NCBI GenBank assembly: GCA_016793115.1
Contig: JAEUIN010000063.1
Coordinates: forward strand, 1-64,000
Direction: 5' to 3'
Length of the DNA stretch: 64,000 nt
DNA from: Planctomycetaceae bacterium
Lineage (GTDB): Bacteria > Planctomycetota > Planctomycetia > Pirellulales > PNKZ01
Both the position numbers and the translations under genes were made by a program. This document shows positions 41,733 to 43,367 of this stretch, piece by piece (positions within the stretch are counted from its first letter, which is position 1; each line of letters begins with the position of its first letter). A model generated the notes under the pieces. The model did not search any database, was not told where the DNA came from, and worked only from the letters and a program-made list of their open reading frames with translations.

Positions 41733-42554
41733 TTATTGAATGTCTTTGTTCATGTAGGTCGTAAGGTCATCGAGCAAGTCGCCGTCCGTCGCGACCACTC
41801 CCTTGAACACCGCACGCGAACCACCGACTTCAAAAAGGGCGATATTGCGATTGTAGACGAGCGAACTGTCGACGTTGGCGTACGACGGTGCCTCCTGAGT
41901 CAGTTTGCCGACGATGTCGTTCATCGGACCAAGTCCGAGTGCGAGAAGCTTACGCGGCGCGGAATCCGGAACGGCCGCGCCCGAGGCATCGTAAAACACG
42001 CCCGACGTGCCCTTCTTCGCATTATCGCGATAGAAGTGGTTGATGATATTGACGCCTGCGGTGCTGCCCGCGTTGACGATCACGGCCGGGACGCTGCCCG
42101 TTCCACCGCTCGACAGAGAACGACGAATAGTGAACATGTCGCCGGGCCGCTTGTTAGTGACTGTTTTGTCGACGTCGTACATCGTCGCGACACCGATCGC
42201 GACGAGCCCCGCAATGTCGGTCGCCGAGAGCGTGCTCGCGGTAAACTTGCCGGTGGTACCGCCGCCGAAGGTCGTGTGCAACCCTTTGGTTTTATTGGCG
42301 ACGTCGACGGTGTTCCAAACGGAGGTACCGTCGGTGAGCGAATCCCAGCCGTCGGGGTAGCTCGTCGTCTTCATCGCTTTCCAGGTCTGAATGTAGCGGC
42401 CGGTGTCGCTCACGGAAGCGGAGGCGGCAGCGTGGTTCGCGTTAGCGGTCAGGCCGTCGAGCTTCGGAATGATGATCATCGCCAGCACGGCGAGAATCGC
42501 GACGACGACGATCAACTCGATGAGTGTAAGACCACGAGAGCGTAGGTTCTTCAT
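41733..42554 (-). CDS. Type IV prepilin-like / major pseudopilin protein
   Basis: A 273-residue protein with a standard prepilin signal: RSRG followed by LTLIELIVVVAILAVLAMIIIP, cleaved after Gly8 with Glu at +5. The C-terminal domain (about 35-273) is unusual but the spacing resembles GspG/PilA-like proteins with a beta sheet and DQ-type motif. It is preceded by a promoter with a Fur-box-like palindrome at 42692-42706 and the start ATG follows AAGGA. It is separate from the larger pseudopilin at 27200. No pilus-assembly ATPase or secretin gene is in the window. Confidence 0.82.
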   Translation of the reverse strand: MKNLRSRGLTLIELIVVVAILAVLAMIIIPKLDGLTANANHAAASASVSDTGRYIQTWKAMKTTSYPDGWDSLTDGTSVWNTVDVANKTKGLHTTFGGGTTGKFTASTLSATDIAGLVAIGVATMYDVDKTVTNKRPGDMFTIRRSLSSGGTGSVPAVIVNAGSTAGVNIINHFYRDNAKKGTSGVFYDASGAAVPDSAPRKLLALGLGPMNDIVGKLTQEAPSYANVDSSLVYNRNIALFEVGGSRAVFKGVVATDGDLLDDLTTYMNKDIQ

Positions 42555-42684
42555 GGAGGCAGGTCCTTACTAACTGACTGTCGCGGCGGGGCGGACCGAC
42601 GTGGTCGACCGCGCGCGGCGACTGCTGGCTGGCTGGGGCGGCATCGCAATCCCTGGAAATAGCTGGGGCGCGATCGAAGCACGA

Positions 42685-42713
42685 ATCCTAATGAGAATGA
42701 TTCTCAGTTGCAA
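42685..42713 (-). promoter_or_regulatory. Sigma-70-like promoter containing a Fur-box-like palindrome
   Basis: On the minus strand TTGCAA (complement of 42708-42713) and TAGGAT (complement of 42685-42690) are separated by exactly 17 bases. The spacer is filled by the palindrome TGAGAATGATTCTCA (42692-42706), a perfect 7-1-7 inverted repeat matching the Fur consensus pattern GATAAT-type (TGATAAT-N-ATTATCA) in 13 of 15 positions. Its position suggests repression of the pseudopilin gene (start 42554) by a Fur-family metal regulator. Binding was not tested; other Fur-family (Zur, PerR) proteins recognise similar sites. Confidence 0.65.
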
Positions 42714-42766: not shown

Positions 42767-42801
42767 CAAAAAAGGCTCGGCGATCCCACGACCGCCGAGC
42801 C
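42767..42801 (-). terminator. Intrinsic terminator after the double HMA gene
   Basis: A 9-bp stem (GGCTCGGCG/CGCCGAGCC, 42774-42782 with 42793-42801) followed on the minus strand by TTTTTTTG. It lies 45 bases after the stop of the HMA gene and before the pseudopilin promoter, so the two genes are transcribed separately. Confidence 0.85.
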
Positions 42802-42845: not shown

Positions 42846-43367
42846 TCACTTCACGGTCACATGAAAACCAGCCTCGTTCAACGCCTTCACGAGGGCTTGC
42901 GCATCGAAGTCCCCTTCGACGACGAAACTCTGCTGCTTCGGCTTACAGGTATCGGCTTGGTATCCGGCGACCGACTTGACGGCGTCTTTGATTGCGCTGG
43001 TGCAAGCTCCACAGCAATTATGAACGCCCGAGACTTCAAGCCGCTTCACGTTTCCCGGCTTCGCACCGCTGTCGTCGGCGATGGTCACGTCCCCGCTGTC
43101 GGTTTTAGCGTGGTAGCCGGCGGCAAGAATCGCGTCGACCGCTTTTTGAGCCGCTTCCTTCGATTCGGCGGCGATCGAGACCTCTTCGTTGTCTTGGTCG
43201 ACGGTGACTTTCGCGCCAAGCAAGTCCTTCGTCGCCGCGACGATCGCCTTCGTGCAACCGCCGCAGCAGATGTGCATCTGCGTGAGCTTCACGTTGGTTT
43301 CGGCCTGAGCAATGCCGGCGGAGGCGACGAGCAAGGCGGCGGTGAGCGAGGCGAAGTGCGTTTTCAT
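42846..43367 (-). CDS. Exported protein with two heavy-metal-associated (HMA) domains
   Basis: A 173-residue protein with a signal peptide (MKTHFASLTAALLVASAGIAQA). Two HMA-like domains follow: residues about 24-95 with MHICCGGCTKAI and about 105-173 with VHNCCGACTSAI. Each has the metal-binding CxxC pair (CGGC and CGAC) plus a preceding Cys; the repeats are clearly homologous. HMA domains bind copper, mercury or similar ions. With a signal peptide it would act in the periplasm or outside the membrane as a metal buffer. The start at 43367 has an AGGAGG ribosome site upstream; the extension to 43532 is not supported. Confidence 0.83.
   Translation of the reverse strand: MKTHFASLTAALLVASAGIAQAETNVKLTQMHICCGGCTKAIVAATKDLLGAKVTVDQDNEEVSIAAESKEAAQKAVDAILAAGYHAKTDSGDVTIADDSGAKPGNVKRLEVSGVHNCCGACTSAIKDAVKSVAGYQADTCKPKQQSFVVEGDFDAQALVKALNEAGFHVTVK

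Follow-up and report, generated by a model that had tools for sequence, protein, structure and literature searches.

In E. coli and B. subtilis, classical Fur boxes take a 19-bp or a 7-1-7 form (TGATAATNATTATCA), and bfd, hemP, and feo are textbook Fur targets. Pilin and type IV pilus genes of Moraxella catarrhalis and Xylella fastidiosa are reported to be induced in low iron and repressed by Fur (as cited in PMC13170364). A type IV pilin, PilA2 in Legionella (PMC13170364) and PilA1 in Synechocystis (PMC4144903), aids growth in low iron or on iron oxides, and Legionella pilA2 is itself not iron-regulated (PMC13170364). Among planctomycetes, Rhodopirellula baltica encodes 74 prepilin-like proteins of the DUF1559/PF07596 (SBP_bac_10) type with an H-X9-DG motif (PMC2754498). 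Our literature searches returned no description of a Fur box or a Fur regulon for planctomycetes, and no paper linking DUF1559 to iron.

Here, we analyzed a 64,000-nucleotide stretch of a planctomycete genome (the window), in which a palindrome upstream of a pseudopilin gene is a Fur box, i.e., a conserved predicted operator. Like classical Fur regulons, this system combines a 7-1-7 dyad with TGA..TCA ends and an AAT-N-ATT center, a Fur homologue, and a box common to bfd, hemP, feo, and flavodoxin genes. It differs from them in that the planctomycete consensus, TGAKAMTSAKTMTCA, is GC-shifted with symmetric outer bases, and in that pilin genes are a leading target class. The Moraxella and Xylella systems share with it pilin genes under Fur repression, reported there in the work cited and predicted here; however, those are proteobacterial type IV pili, whereas the targets here are DUF1559 and other planctomycete pseudopilins, one or two of dozens of paralogues, repeated across the class. 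Legionella PilA2 and Synechocystis PilA1 are not close homologues of the planctomycete pilins, for which an iron role is predicted from sequence.

A conserved palindrome upstream of a pseudopilin gene

The sequence TGAGAATCATTCTCA at positions 42692-42706 has the 7-1-7 inverted-repeat structure of the Fur consensus, as a perfect dyad. On the minus strand, positions 42713-42685 read TTGCAA-CTGAGAATCATTCTCAT-TAGGAT, i.e., with an exact 17-bp spacer that the palindrome nearly fills. The first-pass annotation had described this arrangement as reading toward a pseudopilin at 42554, and both its letters and its coordinates were confirmed, as was the minus-strand open reading frame (42554-41733), whose ATG lies 137 bp downstream of the palindrome. 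The features of the locus are the following:

41733..42554, minus strand: pseudopilin gene, 273 aa, with the prepilin N-terminal motif GLTLIELIVV; appears monocistronic (Pfam N_methyl E 2.4e-6; TIGR02532 above cut-off; orthologues in three congeners)
42564..42568, minus strand: ribosome-binding site AAGGA upstream of the ATG, read from sequence (a purine-rich site lies upstream of all four orthologues)
42685..42690, minus strand: TAGGAT, a candidate -10 element (4/6), an outer operator arm, or both (TAGNAT in 3/4 congeners; T16 A17 in the class-wide logo)
42692..42706, no strand: Fur box, perfect 7-1-7 palindrome TGAGAATSATTCTCA (identical in four genus genomes; consensus shared with the bfd, hemP, and feoA/B upstream regions)
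42708..42713, minus strand: TTGCAA, a candidate -35 element (4/6), an outer arm of a longer Fur operator, or both (kept in 3/4 congeners; conserved G at box position -5 in the class-wide logo)
42768..42801, minus strand: intrinsic-terminator-like hairpin GGCTCGGCGG...CGCCGAGCC plus T run, read from sequence; ends the HMA gene and separates it from the pseudopilin promoter
42846..43367, minus strand: upstream neighbor, a secreted protein that carries two HMA-like repeats and is considered to lie outside the unit (adjoins the pseudopilin in relative G005 but not in G004)

The encoded protein carries the G/[FL]TLxE cleavage and methylation motif with a hydrophobic helix that is typical of type IV prepilin-like proteins, and scores 25.6 against the TIGR02532 cut-off of 16.3. 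It is not a GspG major pseudopilin by TIGR01710, to which it matched with 28.3 bits against a curated 88.85, the match being limited to the N-terminal part. Its AlphaFold model (pLDDT 70) consists of an N-terminal helix (11-61) and a globular domain, and a structure search with this model, including the globular domain, yielded no significant PDB match. Judged by sequence similarity, the protein belongs to a genus-specific family: orthologues 51-82% identical occur in three other genus genomes, and outside the genus none was found among 297 genomes of the order, except for a distant relative in genome G001. Sixteen T2SSF/PilC-domain matches in the source genome represent possible assembly platforms.

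Palindromy by itself is not remarkable in the window, because 14 perfect 7-1-7 palindromes occur there for 5.9 expected. Within the 7.3-Mb genome (an assembly of 411 contigs with an estimated contamination of 7.9%), the exact TGAGAATNATTCTCA is present as a single copy, with 0.004 expected from base composition, and 15 sites match it with ≤2 mismatches, compared to one for a reversed control. The exact 15-mer is found in all four genus genomes, 132-161 bp before the FTLxE prepilin motif of the orthologue, and an alignment of the four upstream regions identified the box and its immediate flanks as the main conserved non-coding island, while the remaining upstream DNA has diverged. In the one congener in which TTGCAA is not kept, this hexamer reads TTGTAC. 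The two closest paralogues of the window pseudopilin in its own genome are likewise preceded by degenerate Fur-like palindromes (TGAGAACGAGTCTCA at L006:1501-1515 and TGACAATGATTTTCA at L012:1501-1515); these are suggestive, but were set aside as evidence because both are degenerate and that of L012 is missing from its relatives L049-L053.

Boxes before iron genes and pilins across the class

Two FUR-family proteins are encoded in the source genome. The first (L016; PF01475 E 1.5e-23, no stops) has a Campylobacter-type Fur, 4ets, as its closest solved structure (E 5e-22), and the second (L017) is a more divergent member with no clear sub-family assignment. A lack of any Fur homologue in the genome, named at the outset as counter-evidence to Fur control, was thus found not to be the case. 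A search at other promoters of the genome, as the first-pass annotation had proposed, identified the same type of box before a Fer2_BFD gene adjoining bacterioferritin (TGAGACTGAGTCTCA) and before hemP (TGATAATGAGTCTCA). The pseudopilin box has the center AATNATT, whereas one or both inner half-sites of the bfd and hemP boxes read ACT/AGT, and this difference in box centers is seen in all four congeners. Elsewhere in the family, boxes of the same form are found before bfd, hemP, and feoA-feoA-feoB, and targets in relatives include feoA/feoB, bacterioferritin, ferritin, flavodoxin, and PepSY genes; when boxes were tabulated by target, the exact TGAGAATSATTCTCA form was also found before feoA/feoB. 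Since the consensus TGAKAMTSAKTMTCA precedes textbook Fur targets (bfd, hemP, and feoA-feoA-feoB), it can be taken to represent the lineage's Fur box. The marks of a Fur operator found here comprise the 7-1-7 inverted repeat, a Fur homologue in the genome, a site that also stands before known iron genes, and conservation of the site in 4/4 orthologous promoters.

Because orthologues of the window gene are confined to the genus, apart from the distant G001 relative, the class-wide test was made on the box and not on the gene. Counting each palindrome once, the center-G form of TGAKAMTSAKTMTCA was detected at the order level in 130 of 297 genomes and at the class level in 161 of 298, for four and two matches, respectively, with a reversed-pattern control. 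A set of 234 distinct exact boxes of TGAKAMTSAKTMTCA was then retrieved from 164 genomes of Planctomycetia, and sequence patterns were used to classify the genes that read away from these boxes. By this regular-expression classification, which is rough but for which representative feoA, bfd, and hemP assignments were confirmed by Pfam, 99 of the 234 boxes (42%), spread over 86 genomes and 14 families, stand before a gene encoding a class I prepilin N-terminus (median distance ~115 bp), and the other targets include feoA/feoB (53), bfd (13), and hemP (10). The background expectation of facing a pilin is 2.3-2.7% at random positions, or ~0.6% from DUF1559 gene density. With stricter gene tests, 95 sites have a pilin start in the 600 bp downstream, and only three have a pilin 3' end within 600 bp. 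The box-pilin link is class-wide and directional, with pilins ahead of the box, while none of 30 loci sampled from the same phylum outside the class faces a pilin. Some of the 60 sites left unclassified were checked, and their targets include ferritin, flavodoxin, PepSY_TM, and hemP genes, along with one ZnuA-like gene (L301). Two further boxes (L105 and L183) precede a CbiX-like gene (sirohydrochlorin chelatase, HGSR motif), and four (L209, L211, L213, and L218) lie between a divergent feoA and a dethiobiotin-synthetase-like (bioD) gene, where biotin synthesis may share the iron operator.

Most Fur-linked pilins are DUF1559/PF07596 proteins (83 of the 86 box-linked pilins scanned), in contrast to the window pseudopilin, which had no PF07596 match in the Pfam scan. 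Genomes carry dozens of DUF1559 pseudopilins (from 26 to >108 genes per genome), of which only one or two have the box. A single similarity cluster gathers 87 of the 99 box-linked pilins; outside it are the window family (four genomes), a second, f10 family (three), and some singles. In a quick tree built from 87 DUF1559 proteins linked to the box and a small background sample of 34 others, 58 of the 87 fell within one group of 68, and labels changed 15 times for a mean of 29.8 with shuffled labels. Taken together, the reduced number of label changes and the existence of separate families suggest that the box-pilin link has in part been inherited and in part arisen anew in different families of pilins. 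The window gene, the second family, and an Flp pilin each appear to have been recruited to the box separately. The motif GHTEWVDG was considered as a mark of all Fur-linked DUF1559 proteins but is not diagnostic (27/87, versus 3/34 in the background).

The Flp/Tad-type pilin gene is found in G003, a member of the family without the window pseudopilin, where a Fur box (TGAGACTCAGTATCA) lies ~30 bp before it (L073:1111-1470, minus strand); it is one of three genes in tandem that precede a CpaB-like gene, and its class III signal is below the Pfam cut-off. At two loci (L141:295-1943 and L164:15-1873), a PepSY_TM gene lies downstream of a Fur-linked DUF1559 pilin in the same orientation (gaps of 72 and 192 bp), which fits an iron-uptake context, and other PepSY_TM genes (L262 and L264) have an exact box of their own. 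At eight loci from several genomes (L093, L207, L208, L210, L212, L214, L219, and L220), a Fur-linked pilin and an ABC-transporter ATPase gene (NLSKxYRDFWGR...) are divergently oriented on either side of the box, and in three f7 genomes the pilin is divergent from a glycerate-kinase-like (L119 and L135) or an amidohydrolase-like gene (L110), the box being close to the pilin.

Box placement relative to the promoter

The first-pass annotation regarded the placement of the palindrome inside a promoter spacer as classic for repression. This layout is present in the window and kept within the genus, but does not represent the usual geometry in the class. Both TTGCAA and TAGGAT match the sigma-70 consensus at 4/6 only, so that the label "promoter" is less certain than the palindrome, and the exact hexamers are uncertain. 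Class-wide, the in-spacer promoter score averages 4.85 both toward and away from the target, and the commonest readable layout consists of a -10-like TAnAAT 5-22 bp upstream of the box, which then covers the start region. These -10-like elements are directional, with 24 toward the pilin versus 3 away, and 30 versus 0 for iron genes. The boxes of the class also share conserved flanking bases (G-5, T-3, A-2, T-1 and A15, T16, A17, C19), which look like the outer arms of a longer operator and are overlapped by TTGCAA and TAGGAT. A general rule of boxes filling a 17-bp spacer was hence rejected class-wide, even though the layout recurs at two f10 pilin promoters (TTGCAA-17-TACAAT at L177 and TTGCGA-17-TATAAT at L181), both with better -10 hexamers than the TAGGAT of the window. 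Either geometry, in-spacer or over-the-start, would let Fur block transcription.

Predicted iron control and its alternatives

The claim that a Fur-family operator controls the pseudopilin, made in the first-pass annotation, is supported by the Fur homologue, the box shared with iron genes, its conservation, and the directional class-wide link to pilins. We consider it highly probable that the palindrome is a Fur operator through which the pseudopilin is repressed in an iron-dependent manner and derepressed in iron shortage, and from these patterns we infer operator occupancy, the response to iron, the direction in which regulation acts, and the function of the pilin. When iron is sufficient, Fe-Fur, as an Fe(II)-dependent repressor, would sit on the 15-bp core plus the outer arms and block RNA polymerase at the pseudopilin promoter. 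When iron is short, Fur would leave, and the pseudopilin would be produced along with the products of the bfd/bacterioferritin genes and of hemP (heme uptake). The pilin would presumably be processed by prepilin peptidase and used by a type IV pilus or type II secretion-like machine, and the cell surface may thereby be changed to help obtain iron, for instance through filaments binding or reaching ferric particles, heme, or polymer-bound iron.

The main competing reading, which we regard as unlikely, is that another FUR-family regulator (PerR-, Zur-, or Mur-like, e.g., L017) binds the site, and that the pilin responds to peroxide, zinc, or manganese instead of iron. The presence of two FUR-family genes, the distinct center of the pseudopilin box in all four congeners, and the ZnuA-like gene preceded by one of the class-wide boxes are consistent with such a regulator. 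However, the same consensus, in its exact TGAGAATSATTCTCA form included, precedes feoA/feoB, the non-pilin targets are mostly iron genes, and L017 has no clear sub-family assignment. It is very improbable that the palindrome arose by chance or belongs to an RNA structure or terminator, with no regulator involved: such palindromes are common in this GC-rich window, yet this one is the sole copy in its genome and is associated directionally with pilin and iron genes across the class, its one-base loop is too short for a good hairpin in RNA, and it is not followed by a T run. Its exact conservation in four genomes amid diverged DNA largely refutes this reading.

We likewise see hardly any chance that the operator serves the HMA neighbor or a divergent transcript, with the pseudopilin as a bystander. 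The HMA gene is 140 bp away and a palindrome is in itself undirected, but this gene reads toward the box, which lies behind the gene end and its terminator; G004 keeps the box with a gene other than HMA on that side; and pilins stand ahead of the box far more often than behind it (95 versus 3). The terminator-like hairpin at the end of the HMA gene is also the reason for placing this gene outside the pseudopilin unit. The metal-binding neighbor had originally been cited in favor of metal control, an argument we rejected since the adjacency is kept in only one of the two relatives in which the upstream neighbor was determined (L080 in G005, but not L074 in G004) and the terminator intervenes. 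The HMA-like repeats themselves contain unusual CCGGC and CCGAC metal-site motifs.

Returning to the iron-responsive Fur operator, the box is a known kind of element, and Fur-regulated pilins have precedents in a few proteobacteria. By comparison, the class-wide recruitment of pseudopilins from several families, one or two of dozens of paralogues, appears new and undescribed. Based on the distribution of the boxes, planctomycetes of this class probably produce a special pilin under iron shortage. Going further, it is conceivable, if somewhat short of probable, that Planctomycetia have an "iron-starvation pilin", i.e., that one or two of dozens of paralogues, from several unrelated families, have been wired to Fur to form or modify a surface filament serving iron acquisition (by binding or reaching ferric minerals, heme, or polymer-bound iron), which would be a new use of DUF1559-type pseudopilins. 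The consensus and the target list make the planctomycete iron response directly testable. For the dozens of DUF1559 prepilin-like genes without known function, singling out one or two per genome and tying them to iron provides a first concrete hypothesis, and would extend scattered reports of pilins in iron acquisition to a whole class.
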